Below are positions 3,485 to 35,970 of a stretch of DNA of 64,000 bases, in pieces. The translations under genes were made by a program, and so were the position numbers. Every line of letters starts with the position of its first letter. Positions within the stretch are counted from its first letter, which is position 1. The stretch covers positions 2,036,775 to 2,100,774 of the forward strand of contig JAJEKV010000125.1 of the NCBI GenBank assembly GCA_021234155.1, read 5' to 3'. The DNA comes from Isoetes taiwanensis. Taxonomy: Eukaryota; Streptophyta; Lycopodiopsida; Isoetales; Isoetaceae. The notes beneath the pieces were generated by a model, which worked only from the letters and a program-made list of their open reading frames with translations, was not told the origin of the DNA and did no database searches.

Positions 3485-4284
3485 TGTTCTTTTCTTCTAT
3501 TGGTTCTTTATGGGCTTTAGGTTGGTGGACCGATATCTCTGCCACTTTTTCATCACGTGGTAGCTTACTCAATTTTATCTAGATACATGAATGTGGGTAT
3601 TTTCCATTTCTATAGGGGGATTGGTTATTTATCATGAATCGACTCTTTTGGACTGTGTACATATGTCCCTGATAGAAACAATGTAGAGCCAATGTAGAGA
3701 CAATGTAGAGATAATGTCGATATCCCTTAGTGATCTTATGACCCTCGTTGCTAGGGGCTACCGAGTCCTATTTGGCACCTTGTCGTTTGGGGTTGTGTTC
3801 TTGCAATTGTTCTTTTCAGTTTTCGGTTTTCTGGCCTTAGTATTACACGTCATTTGTATTTGTGCTATTTAGCTTTTTCTGGATTGTTCTTTTCTTCTAT
3901 TGGTTCTTTATGGGCTTTAGGTTGGTGGACCGATATCTCTGCCACTTTTTCATCACGTGGTGGCTTACTCAATTTTATCTAGATACATGAATGTGGGTAT
4001 TTTCCATTTCTATAGGGGGATTGGTTATTTATCATGAATCGACTCTTTTAGACTGTGTACATATGTCCCTGATAGAAACAATGTAGAGCCAATGTAGAGA
4101 CAATGTAGAGATAATGTCGATATCCCTTAGTGATCTTATGACCCTCGTTGCTAGGGGCTACCGAGTCCTATTTGGCACCTTGTCGTTTGGCGTTGTGTTC
4201 TTGCAATTGTTCTTTTCAGTTTTCGGTTTTTTGGCCTTAGTATTACACGTCATTTGTATTTGTGCTATTTAGCTTTTTCTGGAT
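3485..4284. repeat. Tandem duplication, exact period 400 bp
   Basis: Bases 3485-3884 and 3885-4284 are two head-to-tail copies that differ at only a few positions. The high identity implies a recent duplication. Each copy contains three spaced AATGTAGAG steps. No coding content is recognised. Confidence 0.9.
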
Positions 4285-4766
4285 ACGTCGCATGTTGCGT
4301 TTGGCACTTCCTTATACTCATTCAACCTTTCACCTTCTTCTCTTTGCCATGTTTTTTTGCACTTTGTCATGTTTTTGCATTTGCAAGCTCTTTTGCACCA
4401 TATTTATCCTTTGACGTCTATTCACCTCATGAATTCCACTCTCACCTTAGCACTCTTGATATTCATCTTCCTTTATCTGGTTTATGGTTTGACCTCTTTT
4501 AAGTCCTATTTGGCACCTTGTCGTTTGGCGTTGTGTTTTTGCCATTGTTCTTTTCAGTTTTTGGTTTTCTGGCCTTAGTATTACACGACATTTGTATTTG
4601 TGCTATTTAGTTTTTTTGGCTACGCCGCATGTTGCGTTTGGCACTTCCTTATACTCATTCAACCTTTCACGTTCTTCTCTTTGCCATGTTTTTTGCACTT
4701 TGTCATGTTTTTGCATTTGCGAGCTCTTTTGCACCATATTTATCCTTTGAAGCCTATTCACCTCAT
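4164..4766. repeat. Second overlapping tandem duplication, period about 338 bp
   Basis: The segment 4164-4430 is repeated at 4502-4766. It includes AGTCCTATTTGGCACC, GCATGTTGCGTTTGGCAC and CATATTTATCCTTTGA landmarks. Its first 120 bp are also the end of the 400-bp duplication, so two duplication events are superimposed. Confidence 0.85.
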
Positions 4767-13558: not shown

Positions 13559-15428
13559 TTACAATCTCTCAAATATAATGGGCATGCCATGGTGTGGCTT
13601 CAAGGTGCCGCAGCTCATCGCTGGATTGTGTATGTAACTTGGAGAGATGCGAAATTTGAATCTGGAGAGAATAATGGCCAGTAATATTTTAGCTTCCAGG
13701 ACTGCAAATGCTTGGCCAATGCAGATTCGTGGCCCATCTGCAAAGGGTATGAAAGCCATCGGGTGCTTGCATGCATTTGCGACGCCATTAGCAAAACGAT
13801 CTGGATTGAACTCGTTGGCATCAGCACCCCATAGGGACGGATCATGATGAAGCGCAACAATTGGGATGAAAACTCCAGCACCATTTGGAACAAACAACTT
13901 TCCAAGGTCAATGTCTTTGGAAGCCCCCTTAGCAACGAATATGGCTGGAGGGTACAACCTTAAAGTTTCATTGATCACCATTGTCACCTGGAAAGGGAAA
14001 CAATGCATGAGGTTAAAAACTACTAACCAACCATTGAAGAAAATGTGATGTAAAATTTAAGCACTAACTAGCTATTGAAGAAATTAGAGTGCATGAAGGA
14101 ACTTACAATTTTCAGCTTGGTGATCATTTCGGCATTAGGAAGATTGCCCTTACAAATTTCTTGAACTTCTTTACGGGAAAGATCTTGCCAGAAAGGATGA
14201 TTTGCTAAAAGCATTAAAGTCCAAGTTAACAAGGATGTAGTTGTCTCATGGCCAGCAAAGTAGAATGTCTTGCACTCTTCAATCAATTTTTCATCTCCAA
14301 ATTTGCCATGACTCTTCTCACCAGCAGCAACTTCTGTTAGCATAAGACCTAGAAGATCGCTTCCAAATTCACCAAAATTTGCCGAGTTTTTTCTTGCTGT
14401 AACTACTTCTTCAAGCACAGAATTCAGCTGTTTTTTCAACCTCCATATTTCAAGATTTGTTGGAATGGGAATCAACCTGCAAGCAGTAAGAATGTCAGGA
14501 AAATTTAACAGGAGAACTGTAGTCTCAACATTGAGTTTGGCGCTGTTACCTAGCTGCAGGAAGCCAGTTTAATTTCTGGGCCTTATCAAAAAGCAGTCCT
14601 AGAGAACACAAAAGTTCAAAAACCTGCTTCCCTTTCTCATAGCTACTTCCAAAGGCTGTGTGAGATATCACATCTGCAGTTACGCACTTGAGCTGCTCTA
14701 AAACCTCAATTTCTGCCTCCAAACCCTGTTTCTCAATAGCCTGCTCCCAATTTTCAACCATCTCCAAGGTGCACTCTGTCATGGCACCCACCATAGCCTA
14801 AGAAAAGGAAAAACATATGGGAGTAAAAGGGATGATCCTCCAGAAGAATAACTTAGAAGCCAAATGAATAAGTAAAACCTCCAGAAATAATCCTCCAGAA
14901 GAATAGAAGAGAAATTAATACCTTAAGTTTCTCTGCATGAAACGCTGGAGACAGAATTCGTCTTCTTTGTGCCCAGTCCTCACCCTCTGCTCCTAATATA
15001 CCATTTCCAGTTAAAACATCAATAGCTTTCCGCTGAAGAGGCGTCCTGCCAAAATGACCAGCTTTCTTACAGAGCACTTCCCTAACCAAATCCGGGTCCT
15101 GTATAACCACCCTTGACTCATCACCCATCCATATTAGATAATTTTTTCCGTAGGTTTTAGAGTAGAGTTTCAAATCAGGCAGGAGGTGGGCGACAATATC
15201 ATGAGTGATTTCGTGGAAATCCTGGTCGAGAGCTTTTGCCCTCATGTCCAAAATTTGCAACAGATTTCCAAGTATGGGAAGAGCTGGAGGTCCTGTGATG
15301 CCCTGCCGGAGGAAAGAAGCTCTGATGGCTCGAGGGGTGAGGAGATAATGGTCGATGAGGCTCCATAGCTTCCAAGCAAAAAAAAATGCAAGCCCAAATG
15401 CGCAAGCACACGCCAGTAATCCGGCCAT
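13559..15428 (-). CDS. Cytochrome P450, CYP72-clan-like, four exons, apparently intact
   Basis: The exons are 15428-14922, 14797-14550, 14476-14107 and 13987-13559, each junction with GT...AG. Their sum is 1554 nt, giving 517 residues plus stop with no internal stop. The protein begins with a hydrophobic ER anchor (about residues 3-25) and a QGITGPP hinge. It then carries the I-helix AGHETT near 326-331, the K-helix ETLR at 382-385, the PERF-type motif FNPDRF near 435-440, and the haem loop FADGPRICIG with the ligand Cys at 464. All P450 essentials are present at normal length. The layout and hinge resemble the CYP72 clan (families that modify hormones, terpenoids or fatty acids), which is inferred from overall pattern. 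The exact substrate cannot be read from sequence. The start was chosen because the first ATG gives the complete anchor. Confidence 0.93.
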
Positions 15429-18325: not shown

Positions 18326-20499
18326 AGGTTTAGCTAAACTACCTTCAAATCAGAGCTAGAAGATTCTAACACTTGGCTAAACTAAATGGTTTTTCTCCAT
18401 CACAATTTCTTGCTTTAGGCTAAACTTTCACAAAATGGAAAGGCAAATATTAGCCGTCACGCTATAGCAATTCAAAAAAAAATCAAGCATTTTGGCAAAG
18501 ACATTGAATTTATTGTAAATACATAAATCAAGACACAAACATACATGAACATATTCAAAAACCTAAAAAAAAGAGAACATTATTCCTTTTCCTCTATTCT
18601 ATTCTAATGCTTCGAAAAATATAAACCCTATTTGATATTTCTTAAAGTTAGTACATACATTAGTGTTGAATTTTGGGCTAATCTATCAAATTTTCCAAGC
18701 CCACTCTATCTAAGGTTTAGCTAATCGATGTCTTGATGGATATGTCTGGAGGTAAAGGTTTGGCTATTTAACCTAAAAATTAACTTGGGCGGCAAAAACA
18801 TTGGGCTAAAATTTTCTTTTTTTTGGGCATTTTTTCCATTTACTTTAGCCGTTTTTCTTGGCAAAATTGCTACAAAATAGCCATTTGGCTAACCTTAGCC
18901 GTTATTTTATTCCATGTGCAGGATAAGATGCACTCTCTTCCAACTTAGCAGCATGGCATCAAGCAGGCCTGCCCCCAAGGGGTGGTCCAGTTGCTCCCCT
19001 AGTGCACTGCCACACACTAGCATAGGCCTTCACTCCATAGTGCTCAACCTTCTCAAGGTTCATAAACCCTGAGCTGGCAACAGCAAAGAACTCTTGGTCT
19101 CCCGCCCAAGATATCTTCATTTGGTTTCCCATCCACATTCCATACCTCCAAATCCTCCTCTAGCTGGGAAAGAGGCGGGGGACACTAAAGCACAGACACA
19201 CAAAGTGCAGCAAGCAAACAATGTCAAGAAACATGAATCTATCATGCCTTACCACTATCTGCCCTCCAACACATCCATAGTGCCCTGGCACTGATACTTA
19301 AGCATCTGTTTGGTGCTCTAGACAATGTGACAGCCAGCAACACATAAGTCTGGAGTAGTATGTGTCACAGGATCATAACTATTTGGTCTAACTTGCATCA
19401 GTTCCACACTGAGTGCAGTCCCGCCCGCAATGAGTGCGGCCTTTTCTACACTGAGTGGAGCCCCAACCGTAGTAAGTGCGGCCTTCTTACGAAGAATCCA
19501 AGTAACAACTCAAAGGCAAAAGAGCTGTGCACACTCTACACCGACTGAAAGATCAAGCTGAAATATTAACCAAAGCCTAGCAATATCCTGAAAAGATAAG
19601 ACCCATATAACTCTGGAGAACACCTGCCATAGCATAGGCTCTCAGAGCGCCACAGATCTTGAAGCACATGTTTTGCTAGTTTTATGCCTGTCTATCTCAA
19701 ATGATTGAACAGTTGCTCGAAATCATCCATTTTCTAATCAAAAATCTGGGACAAGAAGAGAAATTACCAAAAGCAGCGGCAATGCTCTGGCATCCTCTCT
19801 ATTCTAGAAGATTCGCTGGCTAACCAGGAAATGGCTCTTTAGAGCTACAGCACAGCCTTGAGATGCGACGGCAGCAGCTCTTAGGCTGCTCATCCAGCCG
19901 CTCATCGCTATAATTTCTGCAAGAAGATGGGCGGCCGCCGCCGCCGCCCTAACTCAGCGCCCTAAACATTCGCCCTTCACCTTCGCCCTTCACCTTCACC
20001 CGGCGTTGTGGAGGCTTTTGTAGCATTCGAGCTCTGATTCTTGTTGTCTAGCAGTTTTTCTCTGGTATAATGGGATTTGAGGCAAAAAGATATGCTACAG
20101 AACATGTGTTTGTGACATTGAGCGGCTATGGAGATGGCGGGGAAGAACCAGTGCTGTTATGCTAGTTTTAGCGAGTTTTCATTTGCTGACGAGTCTTGAT
20201 TTGCTGCACTTTCTACTTTTCTAGTTTGCTCACATCCTAGTTCTTTTTATCTCTCAAGTTTTCTACACTTATGCAAGTTTTTGTTGAGCTATGTAAGGAT
20301 CGAAAGCATTAAACAAACGTCTTCATCTTCAATAGCTATTGAAGTACAAGCAGCAACATCAATCTGTGTGGCTCATTTGTAAGAAAATAGTATGTTGTTC
20401 CAACAGCGATTATGATTCTAGACTGACTAGATCTGGAGAGGTATTACTCTCTTGATGGAGAGTTGTTACTATACATGTACAAGTGCCCAAGTTAAATGG
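18326..20499. other. No gene seen; GGCTAA-rich and GCC-repeat patches
   Basis: Repeated TTGGCTAA/TTAGCC(G) words between 18310 and 18905 hint at a decayed transposon. A short GCC microsatellite lies at 19931-19949, followed by a small CGCCCTTCACCTT repeat. No coding signature. Confidence 0.4.
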
Positions 20500-22063
20500 T
20501 GTGACGTTCCAGCATAATATACGCCCCGAATACGTATATTATACTACCACATCACCCGTACATGTCATGGATGACATGTACTTGGTGGTTGTAGTAGGTT
20601 GCACCTAGGGGGCAAGAGTTGCACCTAGGGGGCAACTTTGAATATTGTGCATGTTAAATAAACATACACAATTAATAACCCCATGGACCCCATTGCCAAA
20701 TGGCTAAACCCCATTTGCCAATGTTTTAACCTAATCCTAAGGGTTTCTATTTAAGGGCTTCCCCTTAAACCCTAAACCCTTTTCCTCTCTTTGCATTTTA
20801 GGGTTTTCATAGAGTTCCTTTCCTTTTTCGCATTTAGGGTTCCCTTGAGCCATTCCGGCCAAGTCAGGACTCCATTTTGCATTGCTCGGCTCTGCAAAGC
20901 CGTCTTTGCACAACAGATCGTCGAGTAGCAGCCATCTTCAGCAAGATTAGAGACATGGATGCGTTCCGAGGATCCAGAGCAGGTCAAGGACTAGGTATCT
21001 AGTCATTCTGTTGTGCAAAGCCATCTTTGGGCTAGGCAGTGAGGTAGTTTAACATATTCATTCAGCCATAGAGGCCTTATAGATCCCGAGACCATAAGCC
21101 CTAACTAAGGAACCTAACTCTGTTGTTTAGGTAGATAGAGTAGATGATTGTTATTCATTTCAAGTTCTGTGATGATGTTGGTATTTCATTCTGTGACCTC
21201 CATGTATTGGGAAGGGGGGTAGAGACCCTAGCAGCTTTGTAGAAGATGATCCTAGAATAGTATCATTAGTACCCAATTATTGCGGCCTATACACAGGAGC
21301 CCACCGGGTTGAGGGTGGAGGGGTCAGACCGGTACCTCTGGTGTGTAAAGCCTACCAGGGATTCTAGTGAGCTAGGTCTAATGCCTTGTCACTGCGTGAG
21401 AACAAGGCATGGGCTCGACACCCGTGGGGTGATACCTCACTCTCCATTGGGTTTAAGTCGAATAAGGGCAGTGGCCCTCTAGCCATCTGTGTTGAGCATG
21501 GAAGCCCCTGGAGGGAGGGCAACCTTCCTCCTGCCTCATCGGGGCTGGAGAGATGCAATCCAGTAGTAGCCCTCTTGGCTACGTACTCGGCAGGCTACGG
21601 TCCAGTTCCATTACCTATCAGGCCACTCTGCAAAGTGTGTACAGGAGGGGCAGATGGAGTGGACTACCCAATAGCCATGTTCCTTTGCCAGCCAAATCCA
21701 TTGCCATGAATTCTGTCTGCAATGACTTCTGGAGGCCAAGCTGGCAGTTGAACCCAGGGTCGGATCCCCTTGTTGATATGGATCATGTTGATGATGTTGT
21801 ATATGTGATGATGGTGTTGTGCCCACCCTTCGAGGTGATTGTATTTACATACTGTTAGTTTGTGCTCATGTTTGTTTATTCACGCTTCCGCAGATAGGTC
21901 GACCCGATGGAAGACGGGTGAATGACACATCCATTCTTCCCTTGCTGGCTCATTCCACTGGGAGTGGAGTCAGGTGGATGGCCCCTGTCAGTGTAGCTGC
22001 CAGGGGGAATGCTCCTCCTTCGGATACGATGTGTGCATCGTATAAGGAGTAGGGGACGTCACA
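20500..22063 (+). repeat. 5' LTR of the H3-carrying retrotransposon
   Basis: The 1564-bp segment starts TGTGACGT and ends ACGTCACA, a perfect 8-bp terminal inverted repeat with canonical TG...CA ends. It is followed after one base by a primer-binding site. A TATA-like TATTTAAG lies at 20748-20755, ahead of AAACCCTAAACCC words. No second LTR is in the window, so the boundary rests on the terminal repeats and the primer site. Confidence 0.87.
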
Positions 22064-22064
22064 G

Positions 22065-22076
22065 TGGTATCAGAGC
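22065..22076 (+). other. Primer-binding site, initiator tRNA-Met
   Basis: TGGTATCAGAGC is complementary to the 3' end of plant initiator tRNA-Met and sits one base after the LTR end, as in many Ty3/gypsy and Ty1/copia elements. Pairing runs for 12 bases. Confidence 0.92.
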
Positions 22077-22277
22077 ATGATCTTGGTAGACCAAGACCGA
22101 GCACTGACTAATTTCCCATAGGACTAACAGTAGATTCAAGTCTTGGAAAATAGCCATCCAAGCAGGAACCTCAAAAATTGGGAAAAAATTTTCCAATTGT
22201 AGTACAGCAATAGGTTAATGCTAAGAGTAGTAATAAGTTTAGCAAGAACCCAACCTAAATTGTTCAAAAAGAGGTGA

Positions 22278-22350
22278 CCCCTCACATGAAAGTGCCTGAG
22301 ACCACTTAGGACCATGTTCCTAACTGCTCCTCGTGCACTGTGTGAGTGGT
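22278..22350. repeat. Nested-hairpin repeat, copy 1 (diverged left arm)
   Basis: First of five copies. The core CACTTAGGACCATGTTCCTA and the right arm are kept, but the left arm reads CTCACATGAAAGTGCC and pairs poorly. Confidence 0.85.
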
Positions 22351-22493
22351 GGACCCAAGTTGACCTAGTTAGATACATAATTTAGCCAATCTAATAGTGT
22401 AGTTCAGATTATTGCTTAAGTTCTAGCTAGTTTTGCATGCTAAAACACTAAGAAACTCCTTGTAAATTGAAAATTGGACCAAAAAAAAACCGA

Positions 22494-22564
22494 CCCCTCA
22501 CAGAGTGCGCCCAGACCACTTAGGACCATGTTCCTAACTGCTCCTCGCGCACTGTGTGAGTGGT
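22494..22564. repeat. Nested-hairpin repeat, copy 2 (71 bp)
   Basis: The outer arms CCCCTCACAGAGTGCGC and GCGCACTGTGTGAGTGG pair at about 15 of 17 positions. Inside, TTAGGA and TCCTAA pair around the loop CCATGT. Copies 1 and 2 are about 216 bp apart and lie just upstream of the TATA box for the H3-like ORF. Confidence 0.93.
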
Positions 22565-22671
22565 GGATACTTTTGGCTGAATAAACCCAATGTACTCCTC
22601 ATATCTTCACTAATACCCTCTAGATTGGCCCAATATGAAATTGCAGATCCAAACCCTAAATTTCCCCTATC

Positions 22672-22680
22672 TATAAATAG
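22672..22680 (+). promoter_or_regulatory. TATA box ahead of the H3-like ORF
   Basis: TATAAATAG lies 109 nt before the ATG at 22781, preceded by AACCCTAAATTT and followed by TAGGGTTCCTCATTTG. The same arrangement (AACCCTAAAA, TATA, CCTCATTTG) precedes the second accessory ORF. The match in order and spacing supports an internal promoter module; promoter activity itself is inferred. Confidence 0.6.
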
Positions 22681-22780
22681 AAAATTAGGGTTCCTCATTT
22701 GTCCTCAGCGCCTTCAGAAACCAGCTCATCCCCGAAAATGATTTTCAGGCGCCCGACCTCTAATTGCTTCAAACAAAAAC

Positions 22781-23976
22781 ATGGCCCGCAGCAAACAGAC
22801 AGCCCGGATCACTGTGCCCCCTGGACATGAGAGCGCCCAAGAGCTGGCCGCCCAACAGAAGGTCAGACAATTCCAGGAGCGAGCCCAAGAGGAGCAGGAG
22901 GCTCAGCCTGACCCAGATGCCGAAAAGGAGGCCCCCGAGCACCAGGAGGAGGAGCGTCCCCAAGATCTTGAGGAGGCGAATGAAGAAATTGCAGAGGAAG
23001 AAGCCGCAGAGCTGCTGAAGAGGGAACTCGAGAGAGAACTCTTCGGAGACCTCGACAAGGAGGAAAACGGGAGCAAGAAGAGGAAGAGGAAGGGCGAGCA
23101 AGGCGTGGAGAAGAAGTCAAAAGAGGAACGTCACAAGGAGAAAGAAGAGCGACGTAAGAGAAAGGAAGAGAAGATGCAGAGGAGGGAGGAGAAAAAGAAG
23201 AAAAGGGAGGAAGGGGAGAAGTGGAGGGCAAAAAAAGGCAAAGGCCCTGCACTGCCCAAGGACACTAAGCGGAAACTCAAGACGACCCCCACCAAAGGAG
23301 TCGCCATCTAGGAGCCCGACCCCGACAAGCCCCCGTCCTCCTCTGACACTGAGTGAGACGAGGAGTTAGGAGTTCCAGCACCAGGGGAAGGTTCGGGACC
23401 CTCGAACACAGGGCGGGAGGAGGAAGATGTAGTAGCAGGTGCACCCCCGTACCCCAAGTGGCCATCTCCCAAGCACCCCTCAGACAACAATAAGAAGCCG
23501 AAGCCCCAACGAGAGTCATATGTACTCAAGCAGGACCTTGAGTACAGAAAGAAGTTGAAAGAGTATACTTCGTACATGAAAATGCACGCAAGGTGACATT
23601 TGTCGAAGGAGGTCGGCCGACAAAGAAGAACACACTCAAGCCACCCCTTGAGAAACCAGCTCCACCAAAGAAGCCCGTTAAGAGAAAGGCGGAATCGAAA
23701 TTTTCCAGAGCAGCTCGAGAGATCCGACACTTCCAGCAGAGTTACGGCTTTCTTATCCCTAGAGCTCCCTTTGCAAGGCTCACAAGGGAAGTTTTGCAGG
23801 AATTTGATCCCTCGAAGAGAGTCACAGATGATATGTTGCTCGCATTACAGGAGGCGGCCAAGCAGCATATAGTCCAAAGCTTCGAAGACTCTGTTGCATG
23901 TGCTATGCATGCAAAAAGAGTGACATGTATGCCAAAAGCTATGAGGCTCGCTAAATATATAAAGAAGGAATTCTAG
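22781..23976 (+). pseudogene. Histone H3-like protein encoded within an LTR retrotransposon
   Basis: The ATG at 22781 opens MARSKQTAR, the H3 N-terminus with T3 changed to S, followed by I instead of K9. Tail spacing is kept for about 25 residues, then comes an E-rich helical segment, KKRKRK (a likely nuclear signal) and a K/E/R-rich coil. The first frame stops at TAG 23309. The same frame resumes through a second stop (TGA near 23354) to about 23590, where a one-base shift enters the frame of the histone fold (about 23698-23973). The fold aligns over its whole length with H3: AREIRHFQQS (alpha-N), PFARLTREVLQEF (alpha-1), ALQEA and FED (alpha-2), CAMHAKRVTCMPK (loop 2), RLAKYIKKEF (alpha-3). 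Loop 1 has the canonical H3 length rather than the longer loop common in CENH3. The undamaged protein would be about 398 residues against 135 for H3. The copy is broken but clearly descended from H3. Confidence 0.88.
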
Positions 23977-24120
23977 ATAATCATTGTAAATAATTTTTGT
24001 AAATATAAGTTTGCAATTTTTGCTAAGTTAATGTGTTAAATCTGCCCTAACCAAGGTGTATTACAAACTTCTGCATTTGAAATTGACAAATTTGGAGCAA
24101 AATTCAGTGTTTTTGGCCCC

Positions 24121-24192
24121 ACTCCTCACAGAGTGCGCCCAGACCACTTAGGACCAGGTTCCTAACTGCTCCTCGCGCACTGTGTGAGTGGT
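24121..24192. repeat. Nested-hairpin repeat, copy 3
   Basis: First of three copies that follow the H3-like ORF. The core loop reads CCAGGT. It starts a tandem array with a period near 204 bp. Confidence 0.92.
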
Positions 24193-24325
24193 CGAGCACT
24201 GATCTATGCCAAAACTTGTCCAAATGCAGAAAGTAAGCACACCATTCGACTCAGCTCACCTTAATTAGTAGGATTTGACCCTTAGTTTGTAGAAATTGGC
24301 CAACCCTAACTCAAATGGAGCTTCA

Positions 24326-24396
24326 CCCCTCACAGAGTGCGCCCAGGCCACTTAGGACCATGTTCCTAACTGCTCCTCGCGCACTGTGTGAGTGGT
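24326..24396. repeat. Nested-hairpin repeat, copy 4 (71 bp)
   Basis: The hairpin is almost identical to copy 2 (CCAGGCCA for CCAGACCA). The spacer before it resembles the following spacer (CCAAAACTTGTCCAAATG; CCTTAGTTTG) but is far less conserved than the hairpin. Confidence 0.93.
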
Positions 24397-24529
24397 CGAC
24401 CCCTATTCTAGGCTAAAACTTGTCCAAATGAAGCAAGTAAGGGCACAATCCGACCTATCTCGACGAGATATGCAGGATTCCATCCTTAGTTTGCATGTTT
24501 GACACCATCCTTGACCCAACCAGGCCCCA

Positions 24530-24600
24530 CCCCTCACAGAGTGCGCCCAGACCACTTAGGACAATGTTCCTAACTGCTCCTCGCGCATTGTGTGAGTGGT
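24530..24600. repeat. Nested-hairpin repeat, copy 5 (71 bp)
   Basis: It starts 204 bp after copy 4. The loop is CAATGT and the right arm has GCGCATTG. It lies upstream of the second TATA-containing leader. Confidence 0.93.
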
Positions 24601-24773
24601 CACACTCAATTTGTCCTAACTTGGCCTAACTTTCACCAAATTAGATGGAATTTGTTGCAATAGCAACCTTAGGATGTACCCTTTAACATGATTAGTTTGT
24701 CTTTTGCATACCAATACCTTAAAATCCTAGGTTTTCCCCAAACCCTAAAATTTTCCAAAATTAGGGTTTTGCC

Positions 24774-24781
24774 TATAAGTA
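24774..24781 (+). promoter_or_regulatory. TATA box ahead of accessory ORF B
   Basis: TATAAGTA lies 122 nt before the ATG at 24896, flanked by AACCCTAAAA upstream and CCCTCATTTG downstream. A GATTTTCCAGGCCCC leader segment is shared in diverged form with the H3 leader (GATTTTCAGGCGCCC), which indicates a duplicated promoter-leader module. Confidence 0.55.
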
Positions 24782-25179
24782 GACCATAACCCTCATTTGC
24801 ATCCTACACCCTTGCTCCTCACTCCAAGCCGATTTTCCAGGCCCCTAAGGCGCTTTTCCATCTGTTTGATATCCCAAGCTGCTCATAGTTAGGCGATGGT
24901 ACAGCGCCACAGCTCATGTGGCCGAGGCCGACATCAACTCCGTCTTCGACCTCTTCCAGAAGCAGATTGATATGGAGGCCACCATCAATGCCACCCCCTT
25001 CTACCTAAACATCATGTCTGAGTTCCATACTAAGATAGGACCGTCTCTAGTAGAGCTCCCACCTTGCATAGGATATTTTGCACCAAGTATGGCCCTCAAG
25101 ATAGCACTGCAAGACATACCTAATATAGACAAGTACCTAGAGAACAAAGCAACTCGCCTACCAAACTACATGTCTATCT

Positions 25180-25216
25180 TTCCTAGGATGGGTCCTAAGA
25201 CACAACAAGTGGCCGA
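25180..25216. repeat. 37-bp direct repeat, outer copy
   Basis: The 37 bp starting TTCCTAGGATGGGTCC and ending AAGTGGCCGA are identical at 25881-25917. In YR elements a short 'B' repeat flanks the 'A' repeat in this way (A1-ORFs-B1-A2-B2). Here the outer copy also reads in frame with ORF B, so it may instead be target sequence. Confidence 0.75.
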
Positions 25217-25725
25217 AGTGAAGTGGTGTTCTCATTGAGCTTTGTAAAATCGTACAGTACACAATTGGTTCCCCCACTGGGGTAGAACTATGAAAAAGAA
25301 CTTGAAAACTTCGAGTGCTCCGAAACTAGACAATCACCGAGAGCACGAAGAGAAAAAATATAAGGGGTGAGATGATAACAAAAGGCCGACGATCGATGCC
25401 CAACGCCCCAGGAACAAGTGCCCCAGCCCTGCGGCTCGTGGAACCGCGAGCGCGCAAAGGAGACTTTGGACAATATAAACCGTTAGACGTTAGAAATGAG
25501 AAGGGACTGATGCCGGATAAGATAGAAAAAACAACTCGGAGGCCGCAGGGCCACGCCGAGAGGATATCACGGTCGACCAACCGGTACAAAGAAAGAAAAA
25601 AGCAAAACGACAGAAAAGACCGGTTGGTACCGCCTCGGAGGCGACAAAAGCCACGCCGAGAATGAATAAAGAGACCAAATAAACCATCAAGCCACGCAAA
25701 CCGACTGAGAGGGAGGGGGGGCGGG
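25217..25725. other. Unique 509-bp segment between the YR element's repeats
   Basis: It lies between the outer 37-bp repeat and the 155-bp repeat and has no counterpart at the other end of the element. It contains ACCAACCGGTAC facing ACCGGTTGGTAC and two CTCGGAGGC...CCACGCCGAGA units. It is probably a further insertion or a diverged part of the terminal repeat. Confidence 0.5.
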
Positions 25726-25880
25726 AAACCAGGTAAAGGCGACCGTAACTAGGAGACAAGCTCAAGGAGAACGCCGATAACCAAAGACAAGGAAAAATGA
25801 GCTATAAAAAAGGGCAAGGAGTTGGTGGGTCCCCATCCAAGGAATGGCGGTTCTATTGCTAGCGCAATAGAACCGAAGCA
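25726..25880. repeat. YR-element direct repeat (A-type), inner end
   Basis: It matches 31780-31941 with small indels from GGAAACCAGGTAAAGGCGAC to ATAGAACCGAAGCA, in direct orientation about 6 kb apart. The end contains a perfect palindrome. Confidence 0.92.
25848..25875. other. Perfect palindrome, candidate recombinase crossover site
   Basis: CGGTTCTATTGC and GCAATAGAACCG are perfectly complementary 12-bp arms around TAGC. An identical copy is at 31906-31933. Paired inverted arms around a short core are the usual form of a tyrosine-recombinase binding and strand-exchange site; this role is inferred. Confidence 0.7.
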
Positions 25881-25917
25881 TTCCTAGGATGGGTCCTAAG
25901 ACACAACAAGTGGCCGA
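25881..25917. repeat. 37-bp direct repeat, inner copy
   Basis: Identical to 25180-25216. On the minus strand it lies directly after the recombinase stop codon and directly before the A-type repeat. Confidence 0.8.
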
Positions 25918-25919
25918 TA

Positions 25920-26990
25920 GAAGAGGAACCTACCTCAAAGACCAAGGTGGCGAGATACAATAAGGCGCTCCTGAACGCTGGGAAGAATATAGCGCGAATG
26001 GGAGGAGGCAGAGCGCCAACGTCCATGGGAACGGACAAAGTCTGAAGGGACGGAAGAAGCAAAGCGCGGGCGGTGGCGCCCTACGACACGACGTTGCTAA
26101 ACGCACGAGGCTCCAAGCCGATAAGACATAAAGACTCAAACCACCAGGAGCGGGCAGCGGCATATGACAACGGGCGGGAGGAAGCCAAGGAAGAGCGGAA
26201 AAGCGGACCACCCGAAGGTGGGTCAATGGTGCGAAAAGCACAGGCAGACAATAAACGATGCAGTAACATCACCGGACAAGAGGGAGAAAAAGTGCGAGCA
26301 ATGAGGACTTCCTGACCGGCAGCAGCTTGGTCGCGACTTGGATTTCGCGGATAAACAACCGACATGATCGGGAAAAAAAGAAAGATCGCTAATTCAGATG
26401 CAAGGCCTCGTGAGATACTGGAGGGAAACCAGCAAAGCAGATGGTAACAAGACATGCTTTCATAATACTACGCCAATGGGCCTGTGACGGGGCAAGTACA
26501 GCAATGATTTGGCGAACGTGAGCCGCAGTCAATGGTAGACGCACCCGCGAAGGGCTATGGACACGCGGGGCCGCCTGACGAACTAAGGTAGGAAGGGGTG
26601 CGGAGCAAGGAGACGGGAAGTTGACCAAGCCATGAAAAAGGCTTACAAAGCAGACGCGATACCTATGGAGTTAGGACCGCGGTGGGCAGATAACAACGAG
26701 GAGAAAAAACGCGGCAACATGTAGGGAGGAGGCGTGTAGTGCCGAATCACCGAGCCGCACTAACCATAAAAAGATAGCCAGGCGGAAGAATAGCTGAGCA
26801 AGGTAGACGATGCACGGGACTGGAGGACAGATACCAATGCTGAGGCAAAGAAGGGCAAAGAGGGATCGTCGAAGAAAGGTAAGATATCTGGAAAAACGAG
26901 ACAAAAAACACAGTAGTCAAAAAACCTATAATAAATCACAACAATCAAACGATGCCAACCAACCTTTAAACTATCAAACATAACCTAGAA
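25920..26990 (-). pseudogene. Tyrosine recombinase of the nested YR element, frameshifted
   Basis: On the minus strand in order: RASSTLLSYSSAWLSFYG (N-terminal helical region), SRVRLPLTAAHVRQIIAVL (start of the catalytic domain), GQEVLIARTFSPSCPVMLLH, then GPLFR and PLSYAAARSWWF. After a stop and a frame change it ends DFVRSHGRWRS, SRYILPSVQERLIVSRHLGL and a stop near 25930. SHGRW and SRYI supply the conserved His/Trp position and the nucleophilic Tyr. The HxxR box before them is destroyed by a stop, and the first catalytic Arg position reads P. The protein would cut and rejoin circular cDNA into the genome; this copy is inactive. Confidence 0.82.
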
Positions 26991-27029
26991 CTAAAGAACA
27001 AACTGACTAGAAAAACAAGAAAGATCTAT

Positions 27030-28022
27030 TCAATGGAAAAAATTACAACGTAAGGCAAATAAAGCGGCATGCCGACGAGAGCCCGCGATGGGAGAAGAGA
27101 GTGAAGGGAGTAAGGCATGTGTGAATTCATGAAAGAAAACTGCATCGTGAACAAAGGGCTGCCAAGAAGCGGAGTCGACAGCAAGCAACGGCCACCAAGG
27201 TGCAGAAGGCCACGCAAACACAACTAGTGTAAGTCGTGCTCTGCAAAGACGGGCGTGATGCAACACTTCGGGAATCAAGGCAGGCGGAGGAAAGCAGTAG
27301 TTATTGAACAAATGCCAATCATAAGATAGTGCATCAGGCGGAATTCGGTGAGGGTAAAAATCCTTAGTATTGAAGACTGGCAGCAAGGCATTAGAAGGGC
27401 TAGCAAAACGATCCACATGATGAGGGCCCCAGCGCGCCTCCAAGAGATGAAAAACAGAAGGGGATAAGGAAAACTCATCAAAGGCCCGGATCTTTGAAAG
27501 ATAATCAGCCCACTCGTTCTCCAATCGTGGAACCCACACCGGCTCCAACTGAATATGATACTGATAGCAAAAAATTAGCACTTCTAGAAGCAAAAAATGA
27601 AGTGTCGGAGAACGTGAACCGCCACTCTGTAACAGAAAAAACACATTCTGGTTATCCCCGCGAGCTATGACACGGGATGCAGCCAGTAAGGGAGCACACT
27701 CCTGCAAGATCTGAAAAAGAGCAAAGAGTTCGCGCCAAGTAGAAGATTGCAAGCGATCATCTGCTGAGAAAACACCAGAGAAGGAGAGAAGCTGAGAACC
27801 GGGACGTGAAAGCCAGCCGCCCCATCCCTCATCACTAGCATCAAAACCCAAGGTAGACTTGAGCACAGTAGGGGGCCACACAGGGGCTCTATCAAAGTGA
27901 CGTATAACAGTCTCCCAAAGCTGGATTTCCTGTGACGCAAGAGGGGACAGCAGGAGAGGGGTATCCCAAAGGTCAAGATCACGAAATCGGAATGGAGGCC
28001 CCAAGTCAAGGCAAAGACACAA
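27030..28022 (-). pseudogene. RNase H and connection region of the YR element (330-codon open stretch)
   Basis: This is the longest open frame of the element. GFDASDEGWGGWL (D), STWRELFAL (E), ARGDNQNVFFL (D) and LENEWADYLSK (D) give the four acidic residues of an RNase H fold in the right order. They are followed by GPHHVDRFASPSNALLPVFN and a region ending PSAPWWPLL, typical of the RT-RH polyprotein C-terminus in DIRS-like and Ngaro-like elements. It follows RT on the same strand with a frame change near 28030. Confidence 0.85.
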
Positions 28023-28029
28023 ATGGCCC

Positions 28030-28870
28030 GTGACTAGACGCAGAGACCGGATAAAACCAAGAAACCGAGCAATATGGCGAGGAGGACATACATAACGAGG
28101 CTAAATGTGGTAGAACAAAGAGACAAGACCCGCTCCTTTTTAGCCTGGGAAATGCGAAAGAAACCCTCCTGTGCATCCACTATGAAGCCTAAAAAGACTG
28201 TGCGGTGTGAGAGACGAAACCGACACTTTTTCCATGCTAAGAGAAACCGGCCTGTTGCAAAGTCAAGCCAATGACGCTGAACTGAGAGACTCGAGGAGGA
28301 CCGCATAGAAACAAAATATCATCGACATAGGGCAAGCAACGAATACCCTGACCTCGCCAAAACCGAACTAACTGTCTAACTAATTTGGTAAAGACAAAGG
28401 GAGCGGAAGCAAGACCAAAGGGGAGGACATTAAAGACGTAAAAACGACCTTCAAGCTCAAAACCCAAAAAAGTGCGGTGAGGAGGCCAAATAGCGACATG
28501 GTGATACCCGGACTTAAGGTCAACGCAAAGAGAAAATCATTAGGCGTACATAAATGTGAAAGCAGCTCAAGGGACTCATACCGGAAGGAGGGAATTGTTA
28601 AGAAAGAGTTCAAACATCGTAAGTCAAGGATAAGGCGAAACTTGTTTATGCCTTTGGGGACAACACCCAAGGGGGAGCAAAAGAAAGGGCAGAGAGGATG
28701 GGACGCAGACCGTGATGCAAGAGATCAGAAACGGCCGAAAGTGCAAAGTCTAGGTGGGGCGTATTAAAGAAGAGTGATTTGGGCGGAAAAAGCAGCGAGA
28801 TGGACGAGAAGATGACCAAGGGAGGCGATAACCAAACCGGATCTAATGCAAAAATTGCTAGGAGGAACAT
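28030..28870 (-). pseudogene. Reverse transcriptase of the YR element, frameshifted
   Basis: Three overlapping frames carry consecutive RT blocks: GINKFRLILDLRCLN, then FELEGRFYVFNVLPFGLASA, and the catalytic YVDD in CLPYVDDILF. The segment SHRTVFLGFIVDAQEGFFRI follows. At least two frameshifts separate them. The blocks match YR-retroelement RTs more closely than Ty3/gypsy by their FxVLPFGLxSAPxxFTK wording. Confidence 0.85.
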
Positions 28871-31779
28871 AGATCGCAGAAAGGAAAAGCGGTCTGGAGG
28901 CGATTTAGAACCACAGAAGCAGAAGCCAAATCATCAGCAGGGGAGGGGTCGATGCCAAGATGAGGGATGATAGAGGTGATCGGAGCACATTCTGAAAAAA
29001 ATGGGTATAAACCGTAAAGTCATGTTGCCAAAAGAAAACAAACCAAGTTAGTCGAAGTGGATAACCATGGGAAAAACAACACCTCTAAAGCTAACACCAA
29101 ACACAATGATTACAACACCGCGATAAACCCGGAGAAATAGAAAACATCCAACTATAATAAAGTAAGACAATTAACATCCAACCTTTTTTAGCAAAGAAAA
29201 ATATCTAATTTGAAAGTGAAAATTCAACCTATCCAAGAAAAAATTAGACAAGAAAACACAACCACACCGACCAATAGAACAAAAACTTAATTCAAAGAAA
29301 TCTATAAGAAAAACAATAGTAATTGAAAAGGGGACCAAATTTGTATTAATATTGAGAAACTATGACAACAGGAAGAAATATGCACGAGGGGAGAACTAAG
29401 AATCAAGGGCCGGGACGAGGAAAAACAAAGCCGGGCCTAAGCACCAAAGGACCGGGGTGGAAACCAAAGGCGGGAGGGGAGCAACAGGAGAGCCGGCTGT
29501 CAGGCGAATGGTAGACGTTTCACCGCACAGTGGCCTGTGGCGTCCAAAAGTGCAAAATGGGCGGATCCCGACCGAGACGAAAGGGGATTGAGGTGTGGGT
29601 AGAAGGTGGAGCCGGAGGGCGAGGCAAATGGATCTAGAAAACAGGAGGGCGCCGATCACGATGCATCTTAGAGCTAGTTTTTAATTTTTAGAATCATCGC
29701 CAGCAGGCAGGGCACGTGATGGTCATCAAAACTAAGGCGACGCCATAGCCCCTCACGATCAGCAATAATCAAGAACTTCATCCCTCCTAGCAGTGGCGGT
29801 TTACCTTCTTCAACAACAACGGAGGAGCGTCGGCACTCGAGGAGACAGGGGCAATCAATGGGCATGAAGCTCCCGGGCATCGGACTCGGTGGTACAAAGA
29901 AACTCGTGATCGGTAGGCGCGATGACTCTCTTAGCTGGGAATCGATCGGGAAGAGCTGTTTTCGAACTTCTGCGCTAAACACTTCGGACCCGCTTCATGA
30001 ACATTAGTGCTAGAAGTGAGTGTCGACCAAGACTCGGATCTGCGCCATCTCAGAATCAAGGGGTTTGCAAAAGCCGAGGCACCATATCTACGATCGAGAG
30101 GAGGGAACCGCATAGCAAGGCCGGCAAAGAGTGGCTCAAAACCTATGCCGACCCTTGTACAAAGGAAAAAACGATGCATTAAGCAAATGACACAGAAGAG
30201 ATAGCCCGAGAAGGGGACCAGCCGAGCTGTGAGTGAGAAGCGACGCCTGGGTATCCGATAGTGGAAAAAACGGGACTGATAGGCTTCAAGAGAAGCCAGC
30301 GGGGTATGCCGTGGTGATTACACCGTGAGGCAATAGAAACCCAGTGGCGCGGGCATCGCCAGATAGGTGGGGTGGACGGGCGTTGCTTTTGTACACCCGC
30401 TAGCCCTCCGAAAGCACGAAAAGAAACCCTCGAGAGGTACTAGGAATGTCGATCGCCATCTCGTGAAATGTCTAAAAACACAATTCACAAAATGTTAGTA
30501 CAAACAATGGGAAAAACAACACGCTTCACGAGATCCATGCCAACAAGGTGGACTTAAGCGCCGGAGCGAATTTGCAACACCCCCAACTAAATATAACCAA
30601 CAATGAGAATTGACGAGAAATGTAAATGACGAGGAAAAAAAAAAGGCAAAGAAGCAAGAAAAGATACACCCACAAAGACCAACGGGACAACGTTGGGAAG
30701 AAAAAAAAAAACCGAAGGACAAGAGACTAGCAACCAAATAATGTTAACAACTGGAAAGAACCAAAGAGATGGTAAAACAATACCAACACAACAAAGAAAT
30801 TAGAACAACACCTCAAGCCAACAAGGTAAAAAAAAAGATCCCAAACAAAGAGGAAGACAAGGGTTCCAAGGGAAACGGGTGCACCCAACCAACACGAAGG
30901 TAAACTGGGGTCGCGCATCAAGACCCGGTATCCCCTCATTGCAGAAATGGCTTAAGTTGCAGCCACGAAGACGGGGTGAAGGTGGAAAACAGAGGAAAAA
31001 CCCAAACCGGGTGGAGGCAGAGGGAAAAACCGAGGAAGGCAACACGAAGGTGGAAAAGCAATATATGGAAGATGGTCGAAAGAGAAAGAGAGGCGAAAAG
31101 CAACGGATATGGAAAGTCGAAAGTAAGAGAGGAGATGGATGGGTGAGGGCCCGACAAAGCCGAAAACGTAAGAGAAAAAGGCAGATCCGGTAAGGGTAGG
31201 GAGCCGGCCGCGGAGCCAACGTAGACCGGAAAGCAACAAATTGAGAATGATATAATCACCGCATCGGAAACACAAGCAATCGGATATGGAAAATGGTCAG
31301 AAAAGAGGGCTTAAGCTAGATTGAGACCCGACAGAAGCTTGGCTATGGCAAAGCCGAAAAACATGCCCCATCGCCAAACCGTCCGGGCAGAGGGCGTGAA
31401 TCTGGGCGAAACGCCCGAAAATTCATGGGCAAAGGTATCGGAGAAACCAAGACAAAAGGTCCGGAAGCAAAAGACCAGGCCTAATGGCAAGCAAGCCGGA
31501 TGCAAACTGAATCAAAACAAAAATAAGGAACAACAAAATCGAAAGCAACGAACTAACCGAAACCGCTCAAGAAATCCTTGACCATGCCATAACCGGGAGG
31601 AAACTGATGCCCAAGACTCGGACAACGATCCCAAACACCAAGAGGAGAACAAGAACCACAGACAAAACCGGATTAAAAACCGAGAATATCACAAGCATCG
31701 TACCTTGAAAAAACTTTCTTGAGTAGGGGCGTGAGACGGTGAGGGCGCCACAGCTTGAGAGGAGCCTTTTCTGAAGGTA
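28871..31779 (-). other. Upstream part of the YR element, no protein recognised
   Basis: This 2.9-kb stretch should hold the gag-like ORF of the element. Minus-strand frames of 60-140 codons exist, but none carries a zinc knuckle or another recognisable motif and they shift frame often. The plus strand is purine-rich between 30.8 and 31.6 kb. Confidence 0.4.
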
Positions 31780-31941
31780 GGAAACCAGGTAAAGGCGACC
31801 GTAACTAGGAGACAAGCTCAAGGAGAACGTTGATAACCAAAGACAAGAAAAAATGAGCTATAAAAAGGGCTAGGAGCTGAGGTGGCGTCCCCATCCAAGG
31901 AATGGCGGTTCTATTGCTAGCGCAATAGAACCGAAGCACTG
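31780..31941. repeat. YR-element direct repeat (A-type), outer end
   Basis: Counterpart of 25726-25880. It holds the second copy of the 12-4-12 palindrome at 31906-31933. Directly beyond it, GCCAATAGAAGGAGGTAC resembles GCCGATAGAAGAGGAAC at 25913-25929. Confidence 0.92.
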
Positions 31942-33296
31942 CCAATAGAAGGAGGTACTTTCTTACAACCACAGTTGTAGCTATTTTCTTATCCCTTCGA
32001 GGCCAAACCCAGATAGGGGAACCCTCAGTGCAGCCCCTAGACATAGAGCCAATGGCCATGGCGTACTTGAGAAGAGGCAGTCATGCCTTGCCCACGCAGG
32101 AGGAGGAAGAAGAAGAGGGACGCTTGGTCGGACTCGGAGGACACTCGACCCAGCGAGGAGAGGGAGTAGGTAGAGCAGCAGCTCCAGAGCTTTGAAGGAC
32201 TCAGACAACAAGAAGCCCCCACCTTTGGGCAAGGAATTACAAGCTTGACCCCAGTGATCATTCAACGAGAGGCATATTTAAGCCTCCATGATATTAAGAA
32301 TCTCCCGAGTGCGAGGCCGGGGGCTACAGAGTGGATGAACTCCTACACCTACTATGACAAGACCCGATCTCGGCGACTTCATCGACAGAGAAACTCAAGA
32401 CTTCCCTATCAGCATAAGGGAAGCCAGAACATACACAGTTCAAACATCCACAGATATTGAAGCCTACACCGGCATCAGACAGATGATGGCCGAGCAAGAG
32501 TTGCCGACGGAAGAGGAGTTCGTGGTGATTCAGGAGCGCATAGGAATCAGAGGAAAATCAACATCAGTACTTCTACCGAGCTCATCGGCATCGGCACCAC
32601 CAGTATCTGAAAAAAGGAGCATCAACCTGGCATCTTCCACGTACAGTGACTACAGAGAGATGGTGGAAATACCGATTGATGAGTACTCCGGAAGACACAG
32701 GGCAGCCCTCTCATCAGGCGGAGAAGCAGGGCATGACAAAGCCCTTAGGTTCTACCTTCCCTTGCTCTTAGATGGAAGGATAGCGGTCATACACCGGCAG
32801 TTCAGCCCACGGGGTGAAGAAGGAGTCTTCATGCTCATCGCGCTCTCAGGATTCGGAAGTCATGCTCGTATGGCCCCAAACATCGACCATGTCATCCTCG
32901 TCAAGAGAACGATAGCATTGAGCATCTTCGACTTCACAGTTCCCTACAGACGGGCAGGGCAGGATGGCAGTGACTACGGCCTACACATCGGACAGGAGGA
33001 TCGAAGACTTGGTGACCGCACTTCAAGGAGGCACGGCCACAAACATTCTCAGGAACCTAGGGCGATCAATTGGCACGGCCCAAGTGAAGAAATTTCTCGA
33101 GGACAACCCGAATTATTTGAAGAAATTCCAGGAGTAAAATTAGAAATGTTTTCAATCTCCTCATATGTTTTGAATGTAAAAATATTATTATATTGAATAT
33201 AAACTATGACCTTAAATATGTTTTCTTCTTATATAATTTTGTCCCCTCAAATTGCATCATCAAACAAACCAATGCATCAACCAAAACAAGGAACTA

Positions 33297-35540
33297 ATGA
33301 TCAGAGTTCAATCTAATGTGCATGCAGCTAGAGTACCTAGAAATGTTGATGAACAGAGGCAACGTGAATAAGAGCGTACTCCACCAAGGCGCTTTCAGCC
33401 AAGAAACCTACGTCAAGAGTTTGATGCAGTAACTCCAGAGGAAGAGCTATCACAGATCCGATCCGACATTCATGAGATAAGGGCATTGCTGGCAGTAGCA
33501 GCAACAGGAGGGCAGGACCAGAACATGCCATTGCCAGAAACACCGGCCGGCCGAACAGTGCAGCAAAGGAAGAGAAGCCGCAGAAGAAGATCACCTAGCT
33601 CAGGCGGCTCCTCCGACTCTAGTTCAGACACTGACTCCGGATCGGAAGAGCAGGAAGAAGAGAGGCAAGACCGCCGGGAGAACCCAAACCATGATAGGGG
33701 CAGGGCACAATCAGACTATCAGAAGAAAGTTGACTCAGCACTTAGCAATGTCTGGAAAGCAAGGAAGCTGGAGCAATTTTCAGGGGATAGCAGGTCAGGG
33801 ATGGAAGCAGAAGCATGGTTGGACGAGATGAGGGAATATGGAAATGCCTATGGCATGAAGGACAAGGACAAAGGCAGAGTAGCTACAGCCAACCTGAAGG
33901 GAGCAGTTAGGATTTGGTGGAAGGGCTACTCTAAAGCACATGGACTGAGCAGGGACAGTTGCAGGTTTAAGAAGTTTGCTAAGGCATTCAAGCGTCACTA
34001 TGTGTCGAGGGAACATAAGTGTCACATGATGCAGCAGTTTTACCGATTGCAGCAGGGCAACAAATCAGTTCAGAAGTACACGGAGGAATTCATGAGACTA
34101 AGGCTCTATGTGCCGAAGTTGAGTGAAAGGCACGCAGTGGAGGGTTACATAGATGGGTTGAATGAAGAGATTCGAAAGCTAGTAAGAGCAATCAACCCTA
34201 GGACGGTGTCAGAAGCAGAATCCAAAGCAGTCAGCTTGCAAGGGACGGGGCCTCAAGAGAATGCACCAAGGCATCAGTATTTCCATGACAAGGAAAAGGG
34301 CACGGGAGGCTATAGCCCAAGAGCAGCGAGCCCAGCAGCCAACAGGCCTCAGTACAATGCTAATTATGGGAAGCAGGGCAATGCAAACGCTGGCAAGCAG
34401 GATAAGAAACAGGTGACCTTCAAAGAGCCAGAAGGGAGATCCAACTATTCCAAGGCAGTGAGACAGTTTTTGCAATCCATTCCCAAAGAGAAGAAGCAGG
34501 AGTGCATAGAGAAGCAGCTGTGCTTTAGGTGTTTCCAACCAGGGCATAGGACAAACAACTGCCCCTTGATGATGAATGCAGCATTAGCGGAAATGGGATG
34601 GGAGACACCAATGGAAGCTGACGACGACGATGCACCAGACTATATTCATGGTGAGTGCCATATCTTTGCAGCCATTGATACGGAGAACGCAGAAAGCCAG
34701 TATCAAGTAATCTCCACAACTGGGAAAGCCAAGGAGAAATCTTTCATAGTCTTGATAGATACAGGGAGCACCCATAACTTTGCATCGCCAAGAATGGTAC
34801 AGACATTGAATCTTAAGCCCTTGAAGTCAAAGCCTAGACCGGTTGTGTTGGCCAGTGGTGCAATCATGCATATAGCAGGAAAAAGAATTAACTTCAACGT
34901 AGACTTGCCGGGAGTCAACGTAGCATTGGGAGCCGAAGTGATGAACATCGGCAAATATGATTTGATAATAGGAATGGAGTATCTTGGGCTAGCAGGAGCC
35001 ATCATTGATTATGGAAAGCGTAAGGTGACCTTAACTACACCGGAAGGCAAGATCATCAAGATAACAGGTAAAGAAGTAACACCAATTATACAATGCATGT
35101 CGAGTGAGAAATTACTTAAGTGCATAAGGAAGGAGCAAGTGGCCTACATCTTCAGACTCCAAGCGGACGATGAAGAGACGGAAGAAGAGAAAGAGGCCAA
35201 AGCATTGAAAAAGCTCCCAAAGCCGATAGCAAAGTTGATAAAGGAATTTCATGACTTGTTTCCTGGTGAGATCAAGCAGCTTCCACCCTATAGAGGAGTG
35301 TGAAATAGCACTCGAACCAGGGACGAAGCCAACAAGCAAGGCACCTTATAGAATGTCAACCGAAGAGTTGACGGAATTGAAGAAGCAACTGCAAGAATTG
35401 CTAAACCTAGGGTTCATAAGACCTAGTGTCTCTCCTTTTGGAGCGCCTATTCTTTTTGTGAAGAAGAAAGATGGGAGCCTTAGGATGTGCATCGACTACC
35501 GTCAGCTAAACAAGCACACCATTAAGAATAACACAAGGCC
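33297..35540 (+). pseudogene. Ty3/gypsy gag-protease-RT, broken and truncated
   Basis: The first plausible ATG in frame is 33297, with a premature TAA at 33369. The frame is then open to a TGA at 35301. In order: R/S-rich RKRSRRRRSPSSGGSS (33570), the gag domain from LEQFSGDS to AESKAVSLQ (about 33768-34245, including VRIWWKGYSKAH), the zinc knuckle CFRCFQPGHRTNNC (CX2CX4HX4C, 34519-34563), and a retropepsin with the active-site box LIDTGSTHNF near 34752. A frameshift near 35290 separates LPPYR from [11 protein letters not shown], after which RT blocks [20 protein letters not shown] and [15 protein letters not shown] follow. Homology ends at about 35540, before the RT catalytic site. The polyprotein would package and process element RNA; this copy cannot. 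Confidence 0.92.
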
Positions 35541-35545
35541 CCCAA

Positions 35546-35970
35546 AAAATAACTATTATTAGTCTGTTACAATGGTTTTTGCATAAAACCGCTATAATAA
35601 ATTAATGTTACTTTGTGGGTTAATATGTTGAATAACCACGAATATTTTCTTAACATAGTTCGCTATCATAGTTCTTTATAATAGTTCCCTATAATAGTTC
35701 TTTATAGTAGTTAGTTAATTTAGTTTATTACCATGTTTTATTGCTACACTTTAATTATGTTATGAATGAACCACTAATGATTTCTGTTTTAATTGTTTGT
35801 GGAAATTAAAGTGGTTTCTTAATAAGGCTATGTATATTTTTCGTACGAACTAATGTTGTTCCATACAATATTATATTTAACCTTTTTATTACTTAAGCCG
35901 TAATGGTTTTTTATCAAAATAGTGATATTTGGGACAAGGTAACTACTAATAGTTTTGTCATCAAGATAGA
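35546..35970. other. AT-rich sequence after the truncation point
   Basis: Bases 35640-35720 hold short repeats of TTCTTTATAATAGTT. AACTATTATTAG near 35553 loosely faces ACTACTAATAGTTTT near 35945, so a small transposon may be present, but the pairing is weak. Confidence 0.3.

Follow-up and report, generated by a model that had tools for sequence, protein, structure and literature searches.

The window, that is, the whole 64-kb stretch of DNA analysed here, contains a histone H3-like gene carried by a retrotransposon. With a probability of roughly 0.6, we regard this gene as the dead representative of an accessory gene that a chromovirus lineage obtained by capturing a host H3 and has conserved, and that codes for a long-armed H3 variant. 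The homology to H3, the position of the gene in the element, its conservation, the purifying selection on it and the recent insertion of one copy are established. Beyond what the first-pass annotation of this DNA had described, the window copy turned out to be broken, and further types of H3 gene exist.

The first open piece of the gene (22781..23308, + strand) begins with the ATG at 22781, which opens 176 codons starting MARSKQTAR; it holds the start of the H3 tail (22784-22807), followed by an acidic and basic linker. The H3 start claimed by the first-pass annotation was borne out, being unique among all 2768 ATGs of the window (both strands): the residues after this ATG match H3 residues 1-8 at seven of eight positions, compared with 3/8 for the runner-up. 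The last open piece (23593..23973, + strand, stop at 23974) lies in another frame and, starting at about 23704, comprises the alpha-N helix and the histone fold. A profile search, which had been suggested for the ORF, supported the claimed H3 fold as well, as this C-terminal piece matched the core histone family PF00125 of Pfam with 82.8 bits (E 3.1e-23), and the best solved-structure matches (60 best listed) were H3.1, H3.3, H3.2 and their kin. The fold is identical to human H3.1 at 43 of 89 residues (48%) in a gap-free alignment, and the window copy shows two odd residues, an isoleucine at position 9 of H3 and an alanine at position 123, neither of which is typical of the other copies. The site for the H3.1/H3.3 chaperone is altered in the window's family (DMLL at 87-90), so ordinary chaperone loading is doubtful, and another route may serve.

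The reading of 22781..23976 as a single ORF did not hold, because the gene is interrupted by a TAG at 23309, a TGA at 23354 and a frame change at about 23577-23592; therefore, the full protein cannot be made from the window copy. We rejected the possibility that the two stops lie within an intron. Our intron scan found 12 GT-AG pairs that would keep the frame open, one of them with a donor near consensus; the acceptors have no pyrimidine tract, and in the open-frame copies the reading frame continues across this region. The fold was modelled poorly from its single sequence (pLDDT 58.5), and a Foldseek search with the predicted fold gave no match at E ≤ 0.001, the top five being chains of nucleosome structures. 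Protein database searches, which require shared 5-residue words so that remote relatives may escape, gave no match at E ≤ 0.001 either with the complete gene as query (171 candidates; stops written as X and scoring confined to region 225-395) or with the fold (14 candidates), and scans of IMG/VR found no relatives.

The carrier of the window gene is a truncated Ty3/gypsy element that runs from the 5' LTR to the start of the reverse transcriptase. Its 5' LTR (20500..22063, + strand, 1564 bp, with the ends TGTGACGT...ACGTCACA) can be aligned along its length in nine of the ten fetched copies of the window's own family, hereafter family A. It is followed by the primer-binding site (PBS) TGGTATCAGAGC (22065..22076, +), presumably of the initiator-Met type, whose exact 11-mer is present in 7/10 family A copies. 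Five hairpin repeats of 75-80 nt (22277-24603, all +) surround the H3-like gene, two in the leader on its 5' side (22277..22353, folding z -3.99; 22491..22567, z -6.05) and three on its 3' side (24118..24195, z -4.53; 24322..24399, z -5.92; 24526..24603, z -6.04). Such repeats around the H3 gene occur in relatives too, and they are a possible packaging or dimer signal. The TATA-like motif TATAAATA (22672..22679, +), a candidate promoter, lies 109 nt upstream of the H3-like ATG, and TATAAGTA (24774..24781, +) lies upstream of a second accessory ORF. The telobox-like sequence AAACCCTA was seen at 20767, 22651 and 24740, beside a TATA-like motif in the LTR and upstream of both accessory ORFs; these sites at TATA-like motifs make up three of the five plus-strand sites of the window.

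The second accessory ORF is broken in the window, where its 5' part (24896..25179, +) is separated from the remainder (31941..33134, +) by a nested DIRS/PAT-like element of 6.8 kb (25180..31940, - strand). This nested element is foreign to the surrounding one, carries split direct repeats of 37 bp and about 158 bp, and gave RNase H profiles at 27033-28022 that are weak and under Pfam's cut-off. Then follow gag and protease (33372..35300, +; PF03732, PF19259 and PF08284), with the gag frame opening at about 33372, and the start of the reverse transcriptase (35242..35562, +), at which the element ends. The latter was matched in 7/10 family A copies, and a Pfam match of its own was not found. A protein database search with gag returned seven proteins at 21-27% identity, the four named ones coming from angiosperms. 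The H3-like gene had been placed between PBS and gag on the same strand; it does lie between LTR/PBS and gag on that strand, but it does not adjoin gag, as the second ORF and the DIRS-like element intervene. A second LTR was looked for within the 64-kb window and not found, and an Rfam scan of 20400-36000 together with a tRNA scan found nothing. Elsewhere in the window, we observed tandem repeats at 3485-4616 (spacing 338-400 bp, 95-99% alike) and a partial cytochrome P450 gene, likely of the host, at 14853-15428 (- strand). This P450 fragment, the PBS type and the angiosperm relatives of gag, although of low identity, make a plant host likely.

Relatives of family A were searched for in the 1.66-Gb genome. 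With the fold as query, the best 150 of 9328 first-look candidates were scored and showed 72-99% identity, while the linker gave 159 matches from the best 150 of 11071 candidates scored; first-look candidates are not equivalent to copies. Ten family A copies, picked for long open frames, were fetched, and all of them have the H3-like gene as an uninterrupted frame of 394-421 aa; the order leader, TATA-like motif, H3 ORF, second ORF is common to the ten, and gag-pro was present in eight. PF00125 was matched at 78.5-147.2 bits by all six full-length proteins tested, and a charged arm of ~280-300 residues lies between the H3 N-terminus and the alpha-N helix in this family. Hence, the further copies that the first-pass annotation had proposed to search for do exist, with the gene at the same place in the ten fetched copies and in both copies of a cousin family (both broken). 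Its idea that an element captured H3 and added a charged linker is likewise strengthened by this recurrence at the same place, the conservation and the low pN/pS given below. A chance H3 pseudogene in a single element copy is excluded by the other gene-carrying copies and the conservation.

The second accessory ORF reads without a break through 504 aa in one family A copy (L014), and its relatives were found in families A and B (those in family B, described below, at 25-27% identity). It had no Pfam match or convincing PDB match, and structure prediction for part of it reached a pLDDT of only 31.6. A movement-like protein was considered and dropped, since Pfam and PDB gave no support. We also do not claim a shared origin of the leaders of both accessory ORFs, because their similarity is marginal (score 109 against a shuffle maximum of 107). 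In another copy (L009, G000:C1080), a second LTR is followed by PBS and leader again, and the linker is matched once more 7.9 kb further along; this arrangement probably represents tandem elements with a common LTR.

Conservation of the tail and promoter was examined in 30 family A copies, including 20 further ones that are high-ranking fold matches listed as stop-free in the fold, regardless of the state of their N part. In a scan that takes the best match per stretch and is thus biased towards a match, MARTKQTARK was found exactly in 18 of the 30, and the residues were kept in 30 (A1), 26 (R2), 30 (T3), 30 (K4), 28 (Q5), 28 (T6), 27 (A7) and 30 (R8) copies. Position 9 is K in 19/30 and I in 11/30; in the latter K4 is kept, as if one subfamily had lost K9. 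The start codon is ATG in 29/30, and TATAAATA occurs no more than 160 nt from the ATG in 24/30, at exactly -109 in 22. The canonical tail of ~37 residues directly before the fold is absent: residues 1-8 or 9 are kept, and then comes the long linker. Because the fold fits H3 and the canonical tail is absent, the encoded protein is an H3 variant rather than a canonical H3.

Selection was assessed by pN/pS from pairwise NG86 counts, in which pairs are not independent. Copies were taken from a similarity ranking, and each was listed as stop-free in the fold, so that the values come from a non-random sample and not from a tree-based test; one copy (L055) belongs to both copy sets. Among 11 open-frame copies of family A, pN/pS was 0.116 for the fold (pN<pS in 55/55 pairs) and 0.287 for the N part, and in a close subfamily it was 0.110 and 0.163, respectively (21/21 pairs each). 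The second set of 20 copies gave 0.118 for the fold, with pN<pS in 189/190 pairs. Thus, the selection among copies that the annotation had proposed to look for was detected in both sets. For comparison, the fold pN/pS was 0.057 in family B (21/21 pairs) and 0.025 in family C (3/3 pairs), and seven host H3 genes gave 0.054 (21/21 pairs). These values indicate that the H3 fold is under strong purifying selection, and it appears to be constrained nearly as much as host H3. In most copies of the second set, the gene is broken early, outside the fold; these are therefore mostly dead copies whose differences still bear the mark of selection. In neutral-drift simulations, which are weaker than the pN/pS test, 72 of 1000 runs were stop-free and 1/1000 was also as conservative as observed. 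The alignment of the 11 open-frame copies contains 163 invariant columns out of 431, 64 of which fall in the last 95. In the second set, R83 and K122 are kept in 20/20 copies and H113, R72 and T118 in 19 each, while D123 (motif PKD) is present in 11/11 open-frame copies and 20/20 of the second set; we take these residues to be H3-H3' bundle and DNA contacts.

The class and recent activity of the element are best seen in one family A copy, L018. Together with the adjoining L056, it contains PBS, gag/pro, RT, RNase H, integrase core and 3' LTR in chromovirus order and spans 13.3 kb by coordinates. Between its 5' LTR and its 3' LTR (L056:2122-3699), the identity is 97.6%, with 18 mismatches and one gap. 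Plant substitution rates are about 0.5-1.3e-8 per site per year, and the LTR divergence read with these rates gives an insertion age of roughly 0.4-1.2 million years. In this single family A copy examined, the integrase ends in a chromodomain (PF00385, 41.5 bits; cut-off 25.1) located after SH3_Tf2-1. Because of the alikeness of its LTRs and this chromodomain, the L018 element is a recently active chromovirus. Judged by eye against what we take to be the aromatic-cage motif, its chromodomain keeps the tryptophan, whereas other aromatic residues of the cage seem to be missing; it is therefore uncertain whether the integrase can read H3K9me directly. A hAT transposon was rejected as the identity of the element, as LTRs, PBS and gag-pol are found in place of terminal inverted repeats and a hAT transposase. 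Integrases of the Ogre/Tat lineage are not known to carry a chromodomain; membership in that group was rejected because the chromodomain is present here, and having an additional ORF ahead of gag is a positional likeness only.

A genome search with PF00125, in which the best 150 of 8705 candidates were scored, revealed further families. Fifteen matches had 164-165 bits, and all seven of these fetched were ordinary 136-aa H3 genes. From the other 135, ten were fetched for long frames, and all ten (L019-L028) have a frame of 418-464 aa with a near-canonical H3 fold at its C-terminal end; they form family B (n=7) and family C (n=3). Both families are without the H3 N-terminus and have a different N-terminal domain of ~200 residues instead. 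The domains of B and C are interrelated (C vs L021, 30-32% identity) and had no Pfam or PDB match. The exact PBS 11-mer was found upstream in 6/10 copies of these families and gag-pro downstream in 7/10; for one copy (L023), neither was seen, only an LTR-like stretch. A fourth type of H3 gene, that of the cousin family, was reached via the second ORF. The two copies read both have the PBS and are both broken; their H3 fold is 50-56% identical to host H3 over the aligned part, and the parts aligned with family A are 46-48% identical. One copy keeps MARTKQTARK and a TATA at -109, and the other has a decayed start (6/10 residues) and a TATA at -105. In a tree of H3 folds, all element H3s fall together beside the host gene L035 with a support of only 0.40, which fits one or several captures.

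As for function, the H3-like gene would be transcribed from its own TATA promoter, and its product would pair with host H4 and enter nucleosomes or H3-H4 complexes. Pairing with host H4 is the simplest reading because the fold appears constrained nearly as in host H3, with bundle and DNA contacts mostly kept, and we consider such pairing and entry into chromatin probable from the sequence evidence. The long arm might then anchor the element's particles, cDNA or integrase to chromatin, determine the chromatin state nearby, or do both. It is likely the effector part, its end being a genuine H3 N-terminus in family A and another domain in B and C. Since the latter families have no H3 N-terminus, a function common to all families cannot lie in the tail. 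The leading candidate uses, we infer, are the tethering of particles or integrase and a self-made chromatin state; an arm serving as a tether or targeting device and one serving as an anti-silencing device are compatible, and each is plausible at somewhat less than even odds. More tentatively still, the element H3 may enter chromatin with H4 and have its distal tail modified and recognised, either by host factors or by the integrase chromodomain, creating a private chromatin address for integration or expression, with the sister families having swapped the tail for a new domain on the same effector platform.

It is also conceivable, though unlikely, that the protein acts outside nucleosomes as a tail mimic or decoy, its free H3 N-terminus occupying readers or writers of H3K4/K9 and thereby blunting silencing. 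The invariance of A1, T3, K4 and R8 in 30/30 copies would suit such a role, as would the full tail of a cousin copy that is only 48% identical over the aligned remainder; however, the fold is more constrained than the N part (0.116 vs 0.287), families B and C keep the fold and not the tail, and K9 is replaced in 11/30 copies. Less probable again is a histone-like condenser that packages element cDNA in the pre-integration complex, by analogy with the supposed role of giant-virus histones. The core histone fold speaks for this, as does the arm, parts of which are basic (+5 to +8 per 25 residues), but no H4-like partner was found among the element frames scanned with Pfam, and the conserved H3-H3' bundle residues point to host H4 as the partner.

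CENH3 normally has a longer loop 1. The alignment with canonical H3.1, the sequence aligned here, is gap-free through that loop (89 residues), and the 60 best structure matches listed are H3.1, H3.2, H3.3 and their kin; both observations speak against a centromere device, i.e., a CENH3-like decoy placing the element in centromeric nucleosomes or competing with them, which we consider very improbable despite weak CENP-T_C profile matches (below cut-off) and the inclusion of centromeric lineages among chromoviruses noted in an excerpt of PMC3059260. We give equally little credence to a captured host H3 that merely hitch-hikes unused, by analogy with fungal hAT transposons. Decayed copies accompany the published hAT capture of H3 (excerpt of PMC6710886), and here the window copy and both cousin-family copies are broken; nevertheless, the low pN/pS (55/55 and 189/190 pairs) and the conservation of tail, promoter spacing and position across families largely contradict this reading.

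Overall, these element families open a long-standing question to direct test, namely whether a mobile element can control chromatin by supplying a histone as opposed to recruiting host factors. They also provide naturally occurring variants of H3 that retain the K4 end while the remaining tail is rebuilt, and the sister families in which the tail was swapped out constitute a natural experiment on the role of the H3 tail. Our literature search (open-licence PMC, where absence is no proof) found no retrotransposon with a core histone, and, to our knowledge, no LTR retrotransposon that maintains a gene for a core histone has been published.

Several known systems are nonetheless comparable, as far as the excerpts of the cited papers describe them. 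hAT DNA transposons of Dothideomycete fungi captured histone H3 and, like the present case, are mobile elements carrying a host H3 in tens to hundreds of copies (PMC6710886). Most hAT-H3 copies in Pseudocercospora fijiensis are truncated and RIP-inactivated, and 23 in Pyrenophora seem protein-coding (PMC6710886). In contrast to those DNA transposons with an ordinary H3, the present carrier is a retrotransposon with a long-armed, diverged H3 that occurs in several families under purifying selection. The lone H3s of viruses (xenomavirus, Dishui Lake phycodnavirus and MAGs) resemble ours in that some are N-terminally extended and thought to act with host histones (PMC9145170). However, they belong to DNA viruses, have 35-68 extra residues if extended, and are 73-87% identical in the fold to host-like H3 (PMC9145170), whereas here an LTR element encodes ~280-300 extra residues and a fold with 48% identity to human H3.1 (window copy). 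The bracovirus H4 is another captured core histone, whose extended N-terminal tail is the effector once in host nucleosomes (PMC5423620, PMC9145170), but this is H4 in a polydnavirus of parasitoid wasps (PMC5423620). Among retrotransposons, a giant Ty3/gypsy element of orchids acquired and kept an extra ORF for an enzyme, an m6A demethylase, and thus differs in its cargo (PMC9289625); a screen of 121 angiosperm genomes reported 15 extra domains, with no histone among those named in the excerpt (PMC9289625). In the excerpt on Ogre elements (PMC6431247), the word "histone" occurs 0 times; compared with those elements, the extra ORF here is a histone and the integrase has a chromodomain.
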